Position numbers and translations under genes: made by a program. The notes beneath the pieces are model-generated. The model searched no databases. It was not told where the DNA came from and was given only the letters and a program-made list of their open reading frames with translations. From Nitrospirota bacterium (GTDB taxonomy: Bacteria; Nitrospirota; Nitrospiria; SBBL01; JAADHI01), in NCBI GenBank assembly GCA_029261155.1, contig JAJDBW010000061.1, positions 124,001 through 188,000 of the forward strand: a stretch of 64,000 bases of DNA, in the 5' to 3' direction. This document shows, one piece after another, positions 34,627-50,791 of this stretch (within the stretch, counting starts at the first letter, position 1; every line of letters starts with the position of its first letter).

Positions 34627-37600
34627 CTACTCCGGCTTCTCTGTAAAGACACGAGTCCCTTGACGGATGGGTTTACTCACAGAGACATCCTTTATCTGAA
34701 CGATCTCCCCGGTACTGCTTTGCACAAAACCCGTTATCGTATTATCACTCACCACGACATTCACTTTAGAGGCAACTCCTTGTCCTAAATCCTTATTCCT
34801 AACCGCCGTTACGCCATCGCTTTTAAAACCAAGCGCACCAACGACATTCCCCGCTTTATCCGTTGCAATGGAGGCGATGCCGGCTTCGAACATAAGCGCA
34901 TACACCGCATTGGTTCCTTGAGGAATACAGATGTCCTGGCCGGGTGTATACGTCGTCACGGCTACAATTCCGCCAATGATAGACGATTCGTGAACCACGC
35001 GTTCTCCGTTAAAGAGATCGATCACCCATCCCCCTTTTTCGCTTGAGGAGCCGCTGGAACTGTGAATGACGTTCGTAATCAGGTCTTTCACTGTCGTTGC
35101 GCCGCAGGCACTGCATGTAATCGTGCCGTCTTTTTTGACATCGATATCGGTCACATTCAGAAGAGAGGACAACGGAATCGTGTTGGTGCAACTAGCCTTC
35201 CAATTCCGGACACCTGAATCCCAACATCCTTTCGGATGCGATTCTTTCACGCCGTATAGCGCTTGCTGGCTCGTATCCGTCTGATCGCTTGTGGGTCCCG
35301 CGCTATAAAACCGGCCTGTCCCGAAATAGATCCAAAATCGACCACTGGTGTCCATTGATGCAGTGGGTTTAACCGTGACGGGCTTTTGCGGATCGAAAAA
35401 TTCCGACAACACCCAGCTTGCAGGATTTTTATTTCCGTAAGACAGCAGGCGGTATACCTTTCCGGACCAGCCGCCAGCCGTTGAATAGTTTTTACCGATA
35501 TATGTGGCATCGGTCACATAGTTTTGCGGCATATCGTAAACGACCGGATCGCCCATAAAAGCCTTGACCTCGGTTCCCGCAGATCGCTTATCGACCAGGG
35601 TGCCGTCTTTCAAATTAATCGTATAGATCTGCCCGACTTCGGTGGCCGTCGATTCGAATTTATTTTCGGTGGCACTCGCTTCCCGTAAGCCGTCATAGCT
35701 GAGCGGACCCGATCCAAAAACGCCATACCAGGTATCTTTGTCATATCGCGTCACGGCAGGCCAGCTTGTCGTAAAGCCAAGATCCGCGTCCGAATAAACC
35801 CAAAGAAGGTCGGGTCCGGCTTCCGGATCTGTAATATCCAATGCAAAGTAGGCGGAGCGAAATCGATCCTCACCCGGATCGGTGGTATCTCCGTCCCCAT
35901 TCAAGTCGACTTTGATTAATCCGCCACCCATCCGTAAGCTTCCGATCAAGACGGTTCCCCATCCTCCAGGATATTTACAAGAGGCATTTGCAGGATTCGA
36001 ACAATCTCCTTGTTCGGTAAAGATCTGAAGGCTCGCTATCCGTGGCGATCCATCGACCATATACACATGTTGGCCTTTATCGTAGTCGGTTCCGGTTAGC
36101 CATTTTAAATGCGGCAAGAGTTCCTGCGGAATAAAGGCCCAAAGCTCTTCGCCCAGCGGCGTCGCGCCAACGGTATTCGCGTTCGGCGCTGTCGTAAAAT
36201 AACCGTGCTCTTCTACGCCGTTTGTATTCGGGTCGTCCCCTTCATGAAAGAATCCGGCATTAAACGCATGCAACATGCCATCGTTCCCGCCGACATAAAC
36301 CACCTGCCGGCGTTCCTTATACTTGGAATAAAAGAGCGTAAAGCTATCGTCGCCATATTTTGTGTCGTATCCTTCGGCGGGAGGCCCAACGGATACGGGG
36401 CTCGAATAGACAATATCTCCCAGACGCCAGGTCTTTGTTGTACCATCCACATCGATTTCCCGTTTCCGGTATCCGGAGATCTGTTCGCCATGAATGAAGT
36501 CGATTATATTTTTCCCTTCAGTCGCATTGGCCGCCCGTAAGTAAGGTCTGAGCGTTGCTTCATTTGCGGCGGAAAAATCGATGAATTCACCCGAGTCGAC
36601 CGTGCCATTGGCATTGCCGTCCACCCATGTTTTGATCAATCGCGGATCCGTGGAAAGATTTCTGTTGGCTAAAACCTTTCCGCCTTCCCATATAGGCTTC
36701 ATTTCATCCAAATCGATGACTGAGTAGGTCGTTTTATTTCCAGAGGCATCGAGATCGTAACGCCTGACTTTGGTTTCTAATAGCTGCATATCGAAAAAGG
36801 TTTCAACAATTTTGTCGTGCTTTAAATCAAGCCTTCCGTCCTGCGGTGGCGTATCTTCACGGAGTTGTCCGAACTCGTCGAAAAAAAGCCCCTGCATATA
36901 TCCAAGCCATGCGGCTTCTCCCTGGCCTTCATCAATGGATGGGAAAAAGTAAGCCTGATAGACCGCGCCTTCACCGCCGGTCGAGGTGGCCAGCACGGAG
37001 ACCGAGGTTCCTGAAGCGCTTCGTTGCAAAATGGCGCTAATGGCCGCAATTAGGCGCGTCTTTAAAGTATAGGCGTTTTGCGATTCGAAATAGGTATCCG
37101 GGACGCCATCTCCATCCTTGTCCCATTCCTTCGGATCCGGCCCTGGCAGGCCATCTTTATTCTTGTCCTCGAAGCCACCCACCTTGGCGGCGTCTTTTAA
37201 AAGCTGGGAGCCTGTACCAAAAGCGAAGAAGGGATAGAAGGTAATATTCTGCATGCCGGGCAGTCCATCATTGTTTGGGCCTGGAGTATATCCGGGTTCA
37301 TTGATACCGGCAATATTTGTTCCACTGGGCGGACGAAGGTCGGTCGTATGGGCCCAGAAGGCAACATCGTCTAAAAAGTGAGAGCCCTCCGCAAGGCATG
37401 ACCCGCCCGATATTCCGCCATAGTAAGCCGAACAGGGATCGTGGTGTTCGCTCATCGTGTTATGGCTCAAACCGGCCGGGTGATTGTTGGGATGGCTGGC
37501 ATGAAGATGAGTAAAAAGACAGCCGGAGGCCGCCGCGCAATGCGTGCTGCTTCCGTGGCCTGCTGCAGTGTGAGCGTAATCTTGAATGGCCGCCGGAATG

Positions 37601-38661
37601 TCTTGATCTTTTGTTGGATCTCCATCTGTGAACATTAAGACGAAGCCTTGACAGCAAGGGGCCCAACGCCCGTTTGTCGCCGTTTTGCAACCGGTTTCAC
37701 CCGCAGGAGGGCTCAGATTCTCGAGACAATAAGGATCGTAAGCGGGACCGATCTTGAAATCGGTGTTTTCATATGCAGGTGTAATCTGGGCAAAATAACG
37801 CGAGGCTTCATAGAGCGATTCCGCAAGCGGGGTCCAAGAGGTGGCGACCAATCCTTCGATGGCATTGATCATCGAAACCATGTTATCCCCAAGATCCGAT
37901 CGGATCTCCGCCCCGTTGTCGTTCCCACCATCATCGTCGAAGGTCATGAGACCGAAACGCGCCCGATCGCCCACTTCTTGAATCACGCCCGTTTGCTTAA
38001 TCACGCCATCCACGGTAATTCTTCTCATGGTTCCTCCGTTCGAACTGCAGGTTCCATCGCCTAGAATGTAGAAATTCCCGCCTTCAACGCGAACGCAGCG
38101 CAGGCCGCTAAAAGTCGCAGGCGCAACGTTGGTCAGATCAAACTGCTTGTAAAATGCCTTACAGCAAGCACCATTTGAAAATTGCGATTGGCCTTTTATT
38201 TTTGTACAACTATTCGCGCTGGCTCGAACCGAGTTACAGAGGCCGCCGGTCATTACCCACTTGGTAATATCGATGCGGCGCATGCTTAACCAATTTAAAA
38301 AATTACCGTCCCATTCGTTTGTACAGGGTCTGTTTCCTTGGGGGGAAAACGTGTTCGTGGCGTAGGTATAGCATTTGTCTTCTTGGTAGTAGCCAAAATA
38401 TTGCGTCGTCGAAACGTATCCCGTCGAAAGGTTCGCGCCACTTAAGGCCAGACAACCGTCCACGCCGGTATCGGAATACGCGCAGTGGTTCATGCTGCCG
38501 GAGTTATCCACCAGCAAAAGGATGTTGGGTGGAATTTCGGGGCCCAAGAAGGGCGGGAGCGCGCTATAGTCGGAAAGGGTTTGCGCGGAAGCCGTACCGA
38601 ACATCACCACGATCAAAAATGCGGCAAATACGATTGGTTGAATGATAGCATTGCGTTTCAT
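34627..38661 (-). CDS. pilY1: Type IV pilus tip-associated adhesin PilY1
   Basis: 1344 residues with a signal peptide (residues 8-27). The N-terminal part has a von Willebrand A-like metal site D52-S54-S56 (LLVDNSGSMN), a large cysteine-rich insert (about 85-430), and Ca-binding DKNKDGLPGPD / DKDGDGVPD repeats near 510-530. The C-terminal half (about 740-1250) is the PilY1 beta-propeller with VYVGGNDGMLHAFNAG, ALDITDPEAG and a Ca loop DLNGDGDTTDPGED. PilY1 sits at the pilus tip and antagonises retraction and mediates adhesion. It follows the minor pilin genes, the usual arrangement. Length is in the PilY1 range. Confidence 0.95.
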   Translation of the reverse strand: MKRNAIIQPIVFAAFLIVVMFGTASAQTLSDYSALPPFLGPEIPPNILLLVDNSGSMNHCAYSDTGVDGCLALSGANLSTGYVSTTQYFGYYQEDKCYTYATNTFSPQGNRPCTNEWDGNFLNWLSMRRIDITKWVMTGGLCNSVRASANSCTKIKGQSQFSNGACCKAFYKQFDLTNVAPATFSGLRCVRVEGGNFYILGDGTCSSNGGTMRRITVDGVIKQTGVIQEVGDRARFGLMTFDDDGGNDNGAEIRSDLGDNMVSMINAIEGLVATSWTPLAESLYEASRYFAQITPAYENTDFKIGPAYDPYCLENLSPPAGETGCKTATNGRWAPCCQGFVLMFTDGDPTKDQDIPAAIQDYAHTAAGHGSSTHCAAASGCLFTHLHASHPNNHPAGLSHNTMSEHHDPCSAYYGGISGGSCLAEGSHFLDDVAFWAHTTDLRPPSGTNIAGINEPGYTPGPNNDGLPGMQNITFYPFFAFGTGSQLLKDAAKVGGFEDKNKDGLPGPDPKEWDKDGDGVPDTYFESQNAYTLKTRLIAAISAILQRSASGTSVSVLATSTGGEGAVYQAYFFPSIDEGQGEAAWLGYMQGLFFDEFGQLREDTPPQDGRLDLKHDKIVETFFDMQLLETKVRRYDLDASGNKTTYSVIDLDEMKPIWEGGKVLANRNLSTDPRLIKTWVDGNANGTVDSGEFIDFSAANEATLRPYLRAANATEGKNIIDFIHGEQISGYRKREIDVDGTTKTWRLGDIVYSSPVSVGPPAEGYDTKYGDDSFTLFYSKYKERRQVVYVGGNDGMLHAFNAGFFHEGDDPNTNGVEEHGYFTTAPNANTVGATPLGEELWAFIPQELLPHLKWLTGTDYDKGQHVYMVDGSPRIASLQIFTEQGDCSNPANASCKYPGGWGTVLIGSLRMGGGLIKVDLNGDGDTTDPGEDRFRSAYFALDITDPEAGPDLLWVYSDADLGFTTSWPAVTRYDKDTWYGVFGSGPLSYDGLREASATENKFESTATEVGQIYTINLKDGTLVDKRSAGTEVKAFMGDPVVYDMPQNYVTDATYIGKNYSTAGGWSGKVYRLLSYGNKNPASWVLSEFFDPQKPVTVKPTASMDTSGRFWIYFGTGRFYSAGPTSDQTDTSQQALYGVKESHPKGCWDSGVRNWKASCTNTIPLSSLLNVTDIDVKKDGTITCSACGATTVKDLITNVIHSSSGSSSEKGGWVIDLFNGERVVHESSIIGGIVAVTTYTPGQDICIPQGTNAVYALMFEAGIASIATDKAGNVVGALGFKSDGVTAVRNKDLGQGVASKVNVVVSDNTITGFVQSSTGEIVQIKDVSVSKPIRQGTRVFTEKPE

Positions 38662-38671
38662 AGTCTCCCCC

Positions 38672-39010
38672 TTAGCGCATTAATAATCCGTAAATGGTGG
38701 CTTCAACGATTTCGTCTTTATCGAGCCTTAAGTCGACACGCATCTCCGGCCTTAATCTCTTTCTCCCATCGATTATCTTTCCCCCCTCTTCATCGAAAAA
38801 TAAGGCATTAGGAGAAAACCGTAATCGTTTGCCATTGATCAGAATAAAATCTTTTCCGATCGAATCGATAAATCCCTGAACTGTATTGGCATTAGAAGAA
38901 AATCCTTCTTCCGTGCCCTCCGCGAGGCCTGGATAGACGTTCACAAACCCAATCAGAAGTCCTATCATTAGAATCCCCACGAAACCTCTCGAGAAATTCA
39001 TGTTCATCAT
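38672..39010 (-). CDS. Small exported beta-rich protein between pilX and pilY1
   Basis: 112 residues with a signal peptide (hydrophobic residues 8-24). The mature part looks like a small beta-barrel: VQGFIDSIGKDFILINGKRLRF then RLRPEMRVDLRLDKDEIVEATIYGL, in the style of OB/PRC-like or DUF5666-type periplasmic proteins. It is 13 bp after pilX and 10 bp before pilY1, so it is part of the pilus operon. Function unknown; the position suggests a chaperone or accessory for PilY1 or minor pilins. Confidence 0.78.
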   Translation of the reverse strand: MMNMNFSRGFVGILMIGLLIGFVNVYPGLAEGTEEGFSSNANTVQGFIDSIGKDFILINGKRLRFSPNALFFDEEGGKIIDGRKRLRPEMRVDLRLDKDEIVEATIYGLLMR

Positions 39011-39023
39011 TTATCCCTTTCCA

Positions 39024-39623
39024 TTATGGGCAATCGAAATATGCCGTCGTCACATTAGACTTGGTCTTGATCGGGCCCAATGAAACCGTATCGACGCTAT
39101 AAAGCGTGCCTGACGCACATCCTGTTCCACCCACTTTCTTATGGTGACCGATGGCAAATTCCTCAAGTTCCGAGCCCGGAAGCATGACCCCCCCCGCTTC
39201 GTAATCGATATCGACCTGTATGGTCTGGTTATTCAGAGCGGTCACGATTAAATCGGGTGAGCCCATCGCAGTATCGTTTCTCAGTGCCCCTCCTCCGGTC
39301 TTTAGCTCTTCTAAAAAATCCAATAGGGTCGCATTGCTCCCTCCCGCCGTGCTCGGATCGACCACGATCGTTCCCGGGTAGCCCTTCGGCGTGGCAGGAT
39401 GCGCGTTCAACTGCAATGTATCCTTAATGACCTTGTTCGAAATCTCGTTTCCGCCACCTGCCGCATGGAAACTTTGTATCGTGCGTTGGTTGCTCGAAGA
39501 CAGGGTTCGTTCGGTGCCGCTGATATCCAGCACCATTACCATCAGCCCCGTGACCAATGCGATCATTGATATGACAATCAATAAGGCGATCCCTTTTTCA
39601 TTTTTATAAGACTGATCCATCAT
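39024..39623 (-). CDS. pilX: Minor pilin PilX
   Basis: 199 residues from ATG 39623; the longer frame runs into pilW and is rejected. The prepilin-like start NEKGIALLIVISMIALVTG carries a class-III leader ending in Gly before a hydrophobic helix and the PilX-type SGTERTLSSSNQRTIQSFHAAGGG segment. PilX is a low-abundance pilus subunit that helps initiate the fibre and present PilY1. It is followed by the 112-aa protein and pilY1. Confidence 0.85.
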   Translation of the reverse strand: MMDQSYKNEKGIALLIVISMIALVTGLMVMVLDISGTERTLSSSNQRTIQSFHAAGGGNEISNKVIKDTLQLNAHPATPKGYPGTIVVDPSTAGGSNATLLDFLEELKTGGGALRNDTAMGSPDLIVTALNNQTIQVDIDYEAGGVMLPGSELEEFAIGHHKKVGGTGCASGTLYSVDTVSLGPIKTKSNVTTAYFDCP

Positions 39624-39636
39624 TTTATCCTTAAAG

Positions 39637-40542
39637 TTAGAGGCCAAGATTCCTGATCTCCACGACCCGTGTAATTTGCCGACGATGAAAATTGTCTGGC
39701 GCCAACGCCGCCGCATGGTCTTCAATGGCCGGACGCGTGGAAATGGTCGCCGTAGAACTTTTATCGGCTGCCCGCGCCAAGATTGAAACCCGTACGCCAC
39801 GAATCGGTGAAGGATTTCCCGCCGGATTATTCACAACAGTGCCATCGGACAAAAGATAGGCAAGTTGAAGATCTTCGATCCCGGAGGCAATCACCTGATT
39901 AAACGCCCCATCGTTTCGCCACAGGGCGAAATCACCCCCAAAAGGAGCGACCGCATAAGTGATTTGCTGTATGCCCGCGACGATAGTCAAATTCGAATAG
40001 GCCCTTGCTAAGGGGGCATTCAAGGTCAGCGTATAGTTCCCACCCGCATCCGGTCCGGCCAGAGCTGTGACTGACGCTGTGAAGAAACCGTTTAATGTGA
40101 TGGTTCGCCCAATAATGTTCGGATTAGTCGGATTCGTACCGGCAAGGGGAGCCACCACAATTGTTGTTGCACCTTGCGGTGCTGCGACATTGATTGTTCC
40201 GATCATTTGGAAACCGCCGCTCACTGAAATTCTGTCCAGTTTATTCGCCCCTCCCTGCGGATCGGGGTCGACATTATTCATTGAAGTAATCGTGGAAAAA
40301 CCAGCCGCTGAAGGATAACTCCCGCCAGCGAGTGGATCGAGCACCCCATATCCTGCGCCTCTGATTTCTCTCACCATCATATCGATCGCGGTACGCGTTT
40401 CCCTTTGCATTTCCGTTTTATTGCTATGGGTTACAGTGAAATTTAGAGAATTGTTAAAAAAACTGTATCCGGCCATCCCGACGATGGTGGTCACGGCCAT
40501 CCCGATCATGAGTTCAATTAAAGTAAAACCTTTTTGCTTCAC
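39637..40542 (-). CDS. pilW: Minor pilin PilW
   Basis: 301 residues if translation begins at GTG 40542, which follows AAGAGGG at good spacing and gives the short leader KQKG before FTLIELMIGMAV; the frame is open 19 codons further upstream into pilV. The body has the PilW-type MVREIRGAGYG segment and beta-rich pilin domain ending with REIRNLGL-like residues. PilW is part of the minor pilin priming complex. 10-bp gap after pilV. Confidence 0.85.
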   Translation of the reverse strand: MKQKGFTLIELMIGMAVTTIVGMAGYSFFNNSLNFTVTHSNKTEMQRETRTAIDMMVREIRGAGYGVLDPLAGGSYPSAAGFSTITSMNNVDPDPQGGANKLDRISVSGGFQMIGTINVAAPQGATTIVVAPLAGTNPTNPNIIGRTITLNGFFTASVTALAGPDAGGNYTLTLNAPLARAYSNLTIVAGIQQITYAVAPFGGDFALWRNDGAFNQVIASGIEDLQLAYLLSDGTVVNNPAGNPSPIRGVRVSILARAADKSSTATISTRPAIEDHAAALAPDNFHRRQITRVVEIRNLGL

Positions 40543-40552
40543 TTTTCCCTCT

Positions 40553-41026
40553 TTATTCGAATAAGGTTTGAACGACGACATTACGAGCGGCCGCTGCACA
40601 GGGCGGCTGCCACACGGTGACGGTAACCGTTGAAATCGCGGTCACAGGCGTATTTTGAACGACCTGAACAGTGCCGCAACCCTGCGTTTCTTTTTCGACA
40701 TTGACTTTCCATTCGTCATAATCATTTTGTAAAATCCCAACTGTTCCTGGGCGGGTTCCGGCATTGGCAGTATCAAAGCCATTGTAGGCGGCCATGTTGA
40801 TCCGATTCCGGCGAATTCTTTCGAGGATTTCATCAGAGGTGGCTGTCGCCCAAGCATCGGTTTGACCTCTACGAGCATTTACGACCGAGATCGACTCTGC
40901 TGTAGCAAACGTCATGAGACCGATCGCCAAGATGATTGAAGCAATCAAGACTTCCAACAAGGTGAATCCCTGCTCTCCTTTTAGACATGTCTTGGCATTC
41001 GATCGATTATTAAAGGTAGCTTCCAT
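40553..41026 (-). CDS. pilV: Minor pilin PilV
   Basis: 157 residues with the prepilin cleavage site GEQG then FTLLEVLIASIILAIGL, followed by the PilV-type NARRGQTDAWATATSDEILERIRRN. It overlaps fimT by 17 bp. Minor pilin in the PilV/W/X complex that starts pilus assembly. Confidence 0.85.
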   Translation of the reverse strand: MEATFNNRSNAKTCLKGEQGFTLLEVLIASIILAIGLMTFATAESISVVNARRGQTDAWATATSDEILERIRRNRINMAAYNGFDTANAGTRPGTVGILQNDYDEWKVNVEKETQGCGTVQVVQNTPVTAISTVTVTVWQPPCAAAARNVVVQTLFE

Positions 41027-41531
41027 TGATATCTCCAGTCATGGTCACAAAGATTTGATAGGATCTTCCTTCACTGTTTTGAATAATGACGTTTGATGGA
41101 TCGGTAACGGGTCTTCCTCGTAGGCCACGTCCGTTAAAAAGAAAAGCGTTTCCCGCAGCATTGATCGTTTGAAAGACAACACCATCACCCAAGCTGAAAA
41201 ATGTTGATGATCCCCTCTGGATGATTTCTTCCGTTCCATTTCGAATAAGATCCCTCGCGACGCCGCCAAGCCCTTGTCCATCATCGACAAAAATGGTGTA
41301 CTGATTTGCCGCTGGGGAATTTAATAGGAGTGTAACCGGGGCATTTCGATTGATTGCTGTAATCCTTGCGACTTGAAGGTTCCCTTGCAATTCTGAAATA
41401 TTTGATCGTAGTCGATGATTAGCGGACCACACGAGAAGATCCGGTACGGCAACCATGACGAGAATACCCAAAATCGCAACCGCGAGCATCATCTCGATTA
41501 AGCTATAACCCTTTCGATTTAACTTCATCAT
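41010..41531 (-). CDS. fimT: Minor pilin FimT/GspH family
   Basis: 173 residues with leader NRKG then YSLIEMMLAVAILGILVMVAVP (in parts) and a FimT/GspH globular domain (LRSNISELQGNLQVARITAI; then LFNGRGLRGRPV). The Tyr at +1 instead of Phe is acceptable. First gene of the pilus operon, 36 bp downstream of the sigma-54 promoter on this strand. Confidence 0.87.
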   Translation of the reverse strand: MMKLNRKGYSLIEMMLAVAILGILVMVAVPDLLVWSANHRLRSNISELQGNLQVARITAINRNAPVTLLLNSPAANQYTIFVDDGQGLGGVARDLIRNGTEEIIQRGSSTFFSLGDGVVFQTINAAGNAFLFNGRGLRGRPVTDPSNVIIQNSEGRSYQIFVTMTGDINGSYL

Positions 41532-46470: not shown

Positions 46471-47391
<921 letters not shown>

Positions 47392-47470: not shown

Positions 47471-47520
47471 GACGCCTCGGTTCGACATGGGGAAATCACA
47501 AAATGTTTGTTTTAGACAAA

Positions 47521-47552
47521 AAAAGAGAGAGGCCTAAGACCTCTCTCTTTTT
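47521..47552. terminator. Bidirectional rho-independent terminator
   Basis: A perfect 12-bp stem (AAAAGAGAGAGG with CCTCTCTCTTTT) around an 8-base loop or less, with T-runs on both strands, longest (seven T) on the minus strand. It ends the transcript of the exported paralogs about 35 bp after the stop at 47587 and separates it from the SUMF1 promoter. Confidence 0.88.
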
Positions 47553-47586: not shown

Positions 47587-48495
47587 TTAAGGGAGTGTTG
47601 CCGTGGTCACACCATTAGTCTGCGACTGGCCATTAGGATATTGAACCGCCGGAAATGAGACCGAGCCATTGTAGACAAAGGAGCCCGAGAGCGTTTGAGT
47701 AAACTTGCCCGTCCCCGTACCGGATTGATCCGGGTCTTCGATGAGGGAGGTCCAGGTCACCGTTGCGGCACCACCCGTCGCAGGATTGTTCGAAGATGTG
47801 GTCGTAAACGCCGTCGTGAGCAATACTCTTTGATCGCCACTCCCTGGTGCGGCAAAGGTCCCGATACCGGTCGTTTTAAGTGCTGTAACCTGCTCCATGG
47901 TCTGAGAAGAAACCACTGCAGCCGTTGTCGTTGACAACTGGTCCCAGCTAAAATTATTAACCACATTAAAACCCGTGTGGGCTGCCGTCACTTGTGCGGG
48001 AACACTATCTTGGCAATCCGTTCCAGCATTTGCACAAAAGTCGGCACTCAAGGTATTGTTCATATCAACCGGTGCCGTCGTGGTCAAGGAATTATCTGCG
48101 GCAGTCAAACTGCTTTGCCCTTGTTGGGATGGGTTAAATCTCGCATCGCCGCAGTTAAGGTCGTTAGATCCAACAGCCCCCGTTCCACATGTTCCAGGAG
48201 TCGCATCCTGTTCGATGATGCCAAACATATTATCTGTGACCGCACCGGGACCAAGGGTTGTAAACATCGTTAAATTCGCCGGAGACAAAAGGGCTGCCGC
48301 ATTCACAGCGCCACCACAGACGCCATTGGCATCCCGGGTTCCGCCCAAGCAAGGGTTAAAACCAGGGTTTCCATTGGACCCGTCTGATCGGACATCTGTC
48401 GACTGTGTGTTGACATTAGGATCGACCGCCCAAGACAGGTGCACGAAGGATAGTACACCCATCGCCATGATTAATGTAAGAAGCAGCTTTTTCAT
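47587..48495 (-). CDS. Exported protein, paralog A of tandem pair, unknown function
   Basis: 302 residues behind AGGAGG. Signal peptide 1-23 (LSWA end). The mature protein is Ser/Thr/Ala/Asn/Gly-rich and nearly free of Lys. Shared with the next gene: TDVRSDGSNGNPGFNPC, FTTLGPGAVTDNMFG, DLNCGDARFNPSQQGQ, and the C-terminal block FPAVQYPNGQSQTNG...LP. Cysteines (about eight) suggest disulfides, consistent with a periplasmic, secreted or surface location. No motif for anchoring or catalysis was recognised. The two genes are about 80 bp apart and end at a strong terminator, so they form an operon. I cannot name a family. Confidence 0.8.
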   Translation of the reverse strand: MKKLLLTLIMAMGVLSFVHLSWAVDPNVNTQSTDVRSDGSNGNPGFNPCLGGTRDANGVCGGAVNAAALLSPANLTMFTTLGPGAVTDNMFGIIEQDATPGTCGTGAVGSNDLNCGDARFNPSQQGQSSLTAADNSLTTTAPVDMNNTLSADFCANAGTDCQDSVPAQVTAAHTGFNVVNNFSWDQLSTTTAAVVSSQTMEQVTALKTTGIGTFAAPGSGDQRVLLTTAFTTTSSNNPATGGAATVTWTSLIEDPDQSGTGTGKFTQTLSGSFVYNGSVSFPAVQYPNGQSQTNGVTTATLP

Positions 48496-48574
48496 TTTTT
48501 AATAACCTCCTTCTCTCGTTACGAAGTAAACAAAGTATGAAAACTTAACTTAAATCCGTCTCCGGGATCTCTCT

Positions 48575-49615
48575 TTATGGCAGGTTCGCCGCTGCAATCG
48601 ATCCATTGGTGAAGCTCTCCCCGTTCGGATATTGAACAGTCGGGAAGGTTGTTGCAGCTTCGTTGTACTCAAAGGACCCTTCGATTTCTTGATCGAAAGC
48701 CCCACCCGTACCGACAACGTCGGCTTGGTTTATATGCATTCTCCAGGTAATAGTCGGATTCGCGCCGATGGCACCCGCGGCGGAATTGGTTGTCGACCAA
48801 CGGGTTGTTATATCGACTTTCACCGTTGTTGACGCGGAGAGACCAGTCGTTTCCTGCATCGATTGTTGTCCACAGACCGTCGGGTTAGCTTCCGGAGACC
48901 CTCCCGTATCTGCAGTACAGGTCATCTGCGTTGGGGCAACGCCGCCGATCGTTGGCATATTCGCAAGGGTCACTTGGAGTACCTGATCCGTCCCCGTCGG
49001 ATTCCAGACAAAGGCATTCTCAAGCTGCGAGCGGTGAAGCGTGGCTCCCGATCCGGAATTCATGTCTGCAGAGTTATTCGCGATTAGAGCACCCGTTAAA
49101 TTGGTGCCATCCGTCGGAATGGTCTGTCCTTGAGTCGTCGGATCAATGCGCACGTTTCCACAATTTAAACCGTTTAAACCGCCAAGCGCACCGCTATTAA
49201 AACCTGCATCGCCAAGCCCTGGCGCACAATTTGTGACTGCGGTATCCGCGTCATTCCCGGCTCCGCCGACAGCATTATTTGCACCCAAGGCCGCCCCAGA
49301 AACCAGACCAAACATATTGTCGGTTACAGCACCGGGTCCTAGAGTAATAAAAGTGCTTACATTTCCTAACAATGCATTTGTTCCGAAAGCATCGCAGCCC
49401 GTCGCATTGGCATCCGCACCGGCACCTGCACCACATGGATTAAAACCCGGATTGTTATTCGTGCCATCAGAACGCTGATCCGTAACCTGTGTATTTGTAA
49501 AGAAGTCGTTCGCCTGAGCCGAAGCATCCACGATTGAGCCAGTAATGAGTCCTACAGAAAAAACAAACAAGCCGACACTTTTAGCAAGCAAGCCTTGGTA
49601 TGCTTTGCCTTCCAT
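48575..49615 (-). CDS. Exported protein, paralog B of tandem pair, unknown function
   Basis: 346 residues from ATG 49615 behind AAAGGGGG; an in-frame GTG nine codons upstream is less likely. Signal peptide about 1-34 (hydrophobic LFVFSVGLITGSIV, ends near DASAQA). Shared blocks with paralog A: TDQRSDGTNNNPGFNPC, FITLGPGAVTDNMFG, LNCGNVRIDPTTQGQ and FPTVQYPNGESFTNG...LP. It has extra insertions, including a Gly/Asp/Ala-rich stretch (about 100-160). Composition is again Lys-poor and Thr/Asn/Gly-rich. Surface or periplasmic location is inferred from signal peptide and composition. Function unknown. Confidence 0.8.
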   Translation of the reverse strand: MEGKAYQGLLAKSVGLFVFSVGLITGSIVDASAQANDFFTNTQVTDQRSDGTNNNPGFNPCGAGAGADANATGCDAFGTNALLGNVSTFITLGPGAVTDNMFGLVSGAALGANNAVGGAGNDADTAVTNCAPGLGDAGFNSGALGGLNGLNCGNVRIDPTTQGQTIPTDGTNLTGALIANNSADMNSGSGATLHRSQLENAFVWNPTGTDQVLQVTLANMPTIGGVAPTQMTCTADTGGSPEANPTVCGQQSMQETTGLSASTTVKVDITTRWSTTNSAAGAIGANPTITWRMHINQADVVGTGGAFDQEIEGSFEYNEAATTFPTVQYPNGESFTNGSIAAANLP

Positions 49616-49750
49616 AACAGTCCCCCTTTCATTCCTTCCCACATCATGATGGGGAAGAATCTAATTATTTCTAAATTACTATATAATTTCTTATTATTAT
49701 TTCTTATTTTTTAAGTATATTGATTATATGCCTATCTTTTGTTAACGCTA

Positions 49751-49759
49751 ATTATACCA
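49751..49759 (-). promoter_or_regulatory. Extended -10 promoter before the exported paralog pair
   Basis: On the minus strand TGGTATAAT, an extended -10 (TGN-TATAAT) with no good -35. It would start near 49744 and give a leader of about 130 nt in an AT-rich region. moaA ends 37 bp upstream. Confidence 0.5.
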
Positions 49760-49795
49760 TATATTTTGAAAATTGGGACCTTAAGCTAAAGTAAT

Positions 49796-50791
49796 TTAGC
49801 CACCAATGCTAATCATGTTCGTAAGTTTCTTCTCTTTTGGCATGACGTCCAATTCATGGTATAGCGGTTTTACATACAAAACCTGATCCAGTAGGCCATC
49901 AATTTCTTCGTCGCTACAGCCATTCCGGATGGCCTCTCTAAAATTGACTGCAATTTCAGAAAAGAGACAGGGTCGTATATCCCCATCCGCTGATAGCCGA
50001 ACACGATTACAGGTGTCACAAAAGTCGTGACTCACGGCATGAATAAAACCAACGACACCTGGGGCCCCTGGAATTCTAAAATTCTCAGCCGGACCGGAGT
50101 TATTTTCATTGGAACCACTAACAGGTTCCATCTTCCCAATCTTTTTTTCCACTTCATCTACAACAGTTTGAAATGGCTTATACGTTTTTACCCATGTATC
50201 CCAGTTCGCACAGGGCATATATTCAATAAATCGAATATGGTATGGTTTTCGTCGGGTCAAGTCGACAAAATCCATGACTTCATGATCGTTCACCCCTTGC
50301 TGTAGCACGACGTTAATCTTGATGGGCTCGAAACCGACGCGTTCCGCTTCTTCGATCCCCTCCCACACCATTGGGAAGATGTCGCGGCGTACCACCTCGG
50401 AAAAAGTCTTTGGATCCAAAGAATCAAGGCTGATGTTAATTCGCTTGAGACCCGCCTTATAAAGGTCGCTGGCCATATCCTTTAAAAAGACCGCATTGGT
50501 TGTCAGCGCTAATTCATCCAATCCTTCAATTTGATTGAGGCGCTCAACAAAACCGACAACGCCTTTACGGACAAGAGGTTCTCCACCCGTAATCCGTACC
50601 TTTTTGAGTCCACGCTTTGCTGCAACGCTAATAATGCGAATTAATTCATCATATGAAAGTAATTCGTCACTGGGGGTCCAGTTCAGCCCTTCTTCCGGCA
50701 TACAATAGACACACCTCAGGTTGCAACGATCGGTGATTGAAACTCTCATATATGTTATAGACCTATTATACGGATCGACGAGCGAGCCCAT
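49796..50791 (-). CDS. moaA: GTP 3',8-cyclase (molybdopterin synthesis)
   Basis: 331 residues behind AAAAAGGAGG. Radical SAM cluster C23, C27, C30 (RCNLRCVYC). The second, C-terminal cluster CDTCNRVRLSADGDIRPC (C-x2-C-x13-C) binds the GTP-facing 4Fe-4S cluster. The C-terminus ends SIGG, the conserved Gly-Gly tail. With MoaC it converts GTP to cyclic pyranopterin monophosphate. No other moa gene is near, so it is an isolated gene. Confidence 0.97.
   Translation of the reverse strand: MGSLVDPYNRSITYMRVSITDRCNLRCVYCMPEEGLNWTPSDELLSYDELIRIISVAAKRGLKKVRITGGEPLVRKGVVGFVERLNQIEGLDELALTTNAVFLKDMASDLYKAGLKRINISLDSLDPKTFSEVVRRDIFPMVWEGIEEAERVGFEPIKINVVLQQGVNDHEVMDFVDLTRRKPYHIRFIEYMPCANWDTWVKTYKPFQTVVDEVEKKIGKMEPVSGSNENNSGPAENFRIPGAPGVVGFIHAVSHDFCDTCNRVRLSADGDIRPCLFSEIAVNFREAIRNGCSDEEIDGLLDQVLYVKPLYHELDVMPKEKKLTNMISIGG

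Follow-up and report, generated by a model that had tools for sequence, protein, structure and literature searches.

The P1-P2 locus

The window is the whole 64,000-nucleotide stretch analysed here. Two adjacent genes in it encode exported proteins, P1 (302 aa) and P2 (346 aa from its ATG, 355 aa from an upstream GTG), each with a good ribosome site ahead of it (Table 1). By inspection, both carry Sec-type signal peptides, with cleavage between ...LSWA and VDP in P1 and between ...ASAQA and ND in P2. P1 and P2 are acidic, cysteine-containing proteins; the mature forms have 0.7% and 0.3% lysine, and T, N, G and S account for about 45% of their residues. The two are homologues with 35% identity. 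The preliminary description allowed that they might align by low-complexity composition only; the Smith-Waterman score of the mature parts is 379 against 61.5 +/- 10.3 in 1000 shuffles (maximum 106; z = 31), and the likeness is therefore not compositional.

A terminator-type hairpin closes the P2-P1 unit. Thus the two exported reading frames, their lysine-poor, Thr/Asn/Gly-rich composition, the four common blocks (all present in both proteins) and the strong terminator are as first described. The separate promoter proposed with them found no support: no sigma-70-like site was found in 49616-49796, in a scan that cannot exclude a promoter there. The moaA-like gene lies upstream of every window-type array and is probably a positional landmark only. 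The window also holds a type IV pilus block (34627-41531) with a PilY1-propeller protein (1344 aa, PF05567), and PilW-like and further pseudopilin genes.

Table 1. Features of the P1-P2 locus and of related loci. Positions refer to the window, or to the locus named before the colon.
Feature	Position	Strand	Remark
SUMF1/FGE-fold protein, membrane-anchored	46471..47391	-	PF03781, E = 1.5e-57
Terminator-type hairpin closing the P2-P1 unit	47520..47552	-	fold -26.1 kcal/mol, z = -4.4
P1, exported family member, 302 aa	47587..48495	-	orthologue clade support 95/93
P1 C-terminal beta domain, LNCG block to C-terminus	47590..48162	-	AlphaFold2
TLGPGAVTDNMFG block of P1	48220..48258	-	
RSDGSNGNPGFNPC block of P1	48349..48390	-	
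P2, exported family member, 346 aa	48575..49615	-	orthologue clade support 100/99
TLGPGAVTDNMFG block of P2	49307..49345	-	
RSDGTNNNPGFNPC block of P2	49433..49474	-	PGF(N/D)P core nearly invariant across 33 members
moaA-like radical SAM gene	49796..50791	-	gene name from sequence by inspection
A2 family members	L033:11578-12561, L035:3824-4765, L032:4000-5178, L089:3817-4542		
Third exported family	L088:3485-4351, L089:4675-5589, L090:3925-4809, L095:4615-5556		

Family distribution and conservation

By sequence comparison, P1 and P2 belong to a new and previously unassigned family in the order of the manganese oxidiser Manganitrophus (Troglogloeales). Searches of Pfam and NCBIfam (E up to 10), PHROGs (E up to 1) and PDB sequences give no match to either protein, and hence none to a curated model of a known S-layer, adhesin or repeat family, which agrees with the earlier statement that the two proteins resemble no familiar family. 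The window's genome has four close members, and relatives occur in the same genus, in a sister genus and in the Candidatus Manganitrophus genus; the related genomes are marine. Metagenome-assembled genomes of GTDB order SBBL01 from an Oslofjord subsea tunnel are Manganitrophus-like and have Cyc2 and PCC (PMC11442690).

A narrow profile finds the family in 9 of the 18 genomes of the order and, among 396 Nitrospirota genomes, in none outside it. A wide profile finds it in 12 of the 18 and agrees with the order-only spread; its weak match in G242, a Nitrospira-like genome, falls on a TPR protein and is regarded as chance. Matches in a scan of about 85,000 species come from this order only, with the exact core peptide GPG-x-x-T-x-NM required, so that remote relatives elsewhere could escape it. 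Viral contigs and plasmids contain no relatives of the family.

In the family tree, which has some long branches and unsure deep forks, P1 and P2 lie in separate clades, each with members from the window's genus, G003 and Manganitrophus; the clade mates of P2 come from G001, G003 and four Manganitrophus genomes. Judged by tree and gene order, P1 and P2 each represent an orthologue group that is ancient and has kept its synteny. The dN/dS ratio is 0.08-0.12 between Manganitrophus orthologues, dS being saturated for pairs of the window and G001, and the family is under strong purifying selection.

A conserved core, as suggested in the preliminary description, is borne out by blocks that align across 33 members. 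Positions G45, P48, F78, G84, T87, N89, C103, G116 and F182 of P1 are invariant, and G82, P83, M90-F91-G92, Q125, W248 and G271 are nearly so. AlphaFold2, run with 29 members, predicts six long strands in the C-terminal half of P1, with a mean pLDDT of 70.6 and strands mostly at 74-90. The full-length protein is predicted poorly (pLDDT 57.6), and its conserved N-terminal half has no confident prediction. Foldseek finds no fold match to the C-terminal domain in PDB or BFVD with E <= 0.001. Gasdermin and pore-former folds head the rows and are rejected, with E of 0.15 or worse and TM of 0.1-0.2.

Array loci

The window-type gene order is moaA, the array of family genes and, at some loci, a Big_5/fn3 lipoprotein and a SUMF1 gene. 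The array has two genes in G000 and G001 of the window's genus, three in G003 and six in Manganitrophus. The window's genus is without the Big_5/fn3 (propeller-type) lipoprotein at this locus.

Outer-membrane genes adjoin several arrays. G011 has the order LolA/DUF1329-like gene, MMPL RND, OMP, moaA, six-gene array and propeller-type lipoprotein, and G003 has RND, OMP, moaA and array. This OMP lies upstream of moaA in G013, G014 and G017 as well. No outer-membrane gene adjoins P1 and P2 in the window's genus, where the RND-OMP pair is on other contigs (G000:C78, G001:C55); this genus seems to have lost the adjacency. Exported lipoproteins with Big_5, fn3, FG-GAP or CarboxypepD_reg domains follow or accompany family genes.

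TPR-barrel fusion loci

Profile-profile comparison shows a distant branch to be homologous with the family (hhalign probability 99.2%, E = 1.9e-19, 180 columns aligned); this branch lies in operon-like adjacency to a gene for a fusion protein. The fusion of G000:C82 (L087:3133-7929) has 1598 aa and comprises TPR at about 1-550, an OMP-homologous barrel at about 825-1058 and a DUF1302-like barrel at about 1140-1598. Its first barrel is homologous to the free-standing OMP, including that of the G011 array locus. Fusions of about 1,600 residues also occur at L126, L127, L161 and L136; the reading frame is cut by contig ends in G005 and G007. PF06980 matches the fusion and the free barrels with 47-51 bits (cut-off 23.2) and nothing at the window locus.

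A family gene is upstream of the fusion in six of six genomes (G000, G001 with two copies, G002, G003, G005 and G007). The nominal chance of this is about 4e-16; the loci are orthologous, and the six therefore amount to a single conserved linkage. The distant-branch gene is 110-349 bases upstream of the fusion in G001:C43, G002:C22, G003:C86, G005:C42 and G007:C20, and in G000:C82 an A2-like gene lies between the two. A giant FG-GAP-type lipoprotein (FG-GAP/CarboxypepD_reg) follows the fusion in G000, G001, G002, G003 and G007, and a LolA/DUF1329-like gene is ahead of the family gene in G002 and G003. The same genomes have unfused TPR, barrel and lipoprotein cassettes (L130, L131, L132, L138) with no family member alongside. 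About half of the family loci have no outer-membrane gene nearby. Two separate contexts, fusion and array, tie the superfamily to outer-membrane barrels.

Comparison with known systems

The exporters Slam (type 11 secretion), BcsC and PgaA consist of TPR and an outer-membrane barrel. The fusion resembles them in its N-terminal TPR, its C-terminal barrel and the exported proteins encoded alongside, but none of the barrel models of Slam, BcsC and PgaA in Pfam matches it; TPR_Slam does so as one among many TPR models. Secreted beta-sandwich matrix proteins of the TasA/camelysin type are likewise exported, beta-rich and paralogous, and a conserved block follows their signal peptide. In contrast, P1 and P2 match no Pfam model up to E = 10 and are therefore not members of that group.

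The nearest described system is AmeABCD of Castellaniella defragrans, with a DUF1302 outer-membrane protein (AmeA), a DUF1329/LolA-like protein of the LolA superfamily (AmeB), a COG4447 protein and an HAE3 RND pump (AmeD) (PMC6394551). The surroundings of the family loci repeatedly include a DUF1302-like barrel, a LolA/DUF1329-like gene, an MMPL RND and propeller-type proteins. Unlike in AmeABCD, a TPR scaffold and a second barrel go with the DUF1302-like barrel, either by fusion or as a pair; the loci also have giant lipoproteins and exported families that are new, and the parts are split over two locus types. The four AmeABCD-type genes are never together in the loci read; RND is with the OMP at arrays, and DUF1302 is with TPR elsewhere. 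Compared with AmeB and AmeC, P1 and P2 have no LolA, DUF1329 or propeller match in Pfam.

Possible function and alternatives

A cell-surface role of the family is probable, as its distant members adjoin genes of a large outer-membrane complex. We favour, with somewhat less than even confidence, a role of P1 and P2 as proteins secreted to the surface that rely on, or belong to, a TPR/barrel outer-membrane assembly of Troglogloeales. They would enter the periplasm via Sec, where a TPR scaffold would receive or capture them; this scaffold is linked to outer-membrane barrels, namely the OMP with the motif YKPSLKTLN and the DUF1302-like barrel. A LolA/DUF1329-like carrier and, at array loci, the RND pump may assist. 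The final place of the proteins would be the outer face or the space beyond it, where, together with giant FG-GAP or Big/fn3 lipoproteins, they could form a surface layer or matrix. For P1 and P2 of the window, this scheme presumes that they use the same machine as their relatives, cross the outer membrane and take a matrix role.

Next in preference, and rather unlikely, they act on their own at the surface or in a matrix, as S-layer-like, adhesive or mineral-templating proteins; their paralogues would diversify to coat the cell, and the outer-membrane linkage would be historical and not functional. Such coats are in keeping with tandem expansion to two, three or six copies, with mature proteins that are acidic, poor in Lys and rich in T, N and G, with Ig-like and fn3 domains in neighbouring proteins, and with a window locus free of outer-membrane genes. 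Against them, Pfam and NCBIfam give no S-layer, adhesin or repeat family match and the family is linked to barrels in two separate contexts. Less likely still are periplasmic or outer-membrane subunits of an AmeABCD-kind export route for lipids or hydrophobes, in which the beta domain would bind or pass a substrate moved by an HAE3-type RND pump and a LolA-like carrier to a DUF1302-like barrel. The counterparts of AmeA, AmeB and AmeD and the propeller-type proteins are all found around family loci. Yet the RND gene is confined to the array type and the DUF1302 barrel to the fusion type, AmeABCD has no P1/P2-like component, and sixfold paralogy with little conservation between the blocks suits a surface protein better.

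It is highly improbable that P1 and P2 are substrates of the neighbouring SUMF1-type protein, modified after export. The membrane-anchored SUMF1 gene noted in the preliminary description is present, and its product has an N-terminal hydrophobic anchor. It adjoins the pair in G000 and G001 and lies near the array in G003, but is absent beside the Manganitrophus arrays, so the neighbourhood holds for the window's genus and G003. Moreover, the terminator separates it from the pair, and CxPxR occurs in 0 of 41 family members. In alignment to solved formylglycine-generating enzymes, the protein has no Cys at SYLNTAHDLRASKR, the site of the catalytic Cys, and is therefore not evidence of sulfatase-type modification. 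Overall, the initial interpretation keeps its unassigned family, conserved core and consistent neighbourhood, loses the separate promoter and has its SUMF1 synteny qualified. The outer-membrane linkage in related loci is more informative than the SUMF1 neighbour and is not visible from the window alone.

Manganese context

Candidatus Manganitrophus is the lineage where growth by manganese oxidation was shown. Its cell surface, the site of Mn oxidation and oxide nodules, is largely unexplained. A published comparison deals with Cyc2, porin-cytochromes and oxidases, and its passages on these mention no exported family of this kind (PMC9040806). CxxCH haem motifs are absent from 41 of 41 family members and from the cassette proteins checked. 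Co-occurrence with Mn-oxidation genes is rejected; decahaem TIGR03508 matches are patchy, and multihaem proteins are also present in g2 genomes without the narrow family. The family has the clade in common with Mn oxidation, and no link is claimed. More speculatively, and with small probability, a new lineage-specific secretion and assembly system of the outer membrane, made up of a TPR scaffold, two barrels and a giant lipoprotein and served by a secreted beta-protein superfamily of its own, could build the extracellular layer for Mn oxide deposition by Manganitrophus and its kin. An exported family that is conserved and expanded and has ties to outer-membrane machinery offers surface proteomics a set of named candidates. 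The fusion of TPR and barrels in one gene serves as a Rosetta-stone link through which the partnership can be tested.

Accompanying exported families

At loci of a second type, a family member forms a pair with an exported A2 protein of about 300 aa. The A2 family (exported, 240-390 aa) has an invariant S-x-TDxxG motif and no Pfam match, and its homology to P1 and P2 is not significant in three profile comparisons; it also occurs in other families of the class. A third exported family, with a NIQTNTTSTTVGSTQFG start, lies between A2-like and TPR genes; its profile comparison covers only 33 N-terminal columns, at 35% probability. An apparently broken copy of the P1/P2 family with only the N-terminal block region in frame (L094:4530-5180, G014:C11) is near fragmentary A2 and third-family genes. 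In Manganitrophus, an exported fn3 protein of about 2,480 residues and a 277-aa fn3 protein (L042:179-8478, L044:100-8412) are encoded upstream of the pair of A2 and family member.
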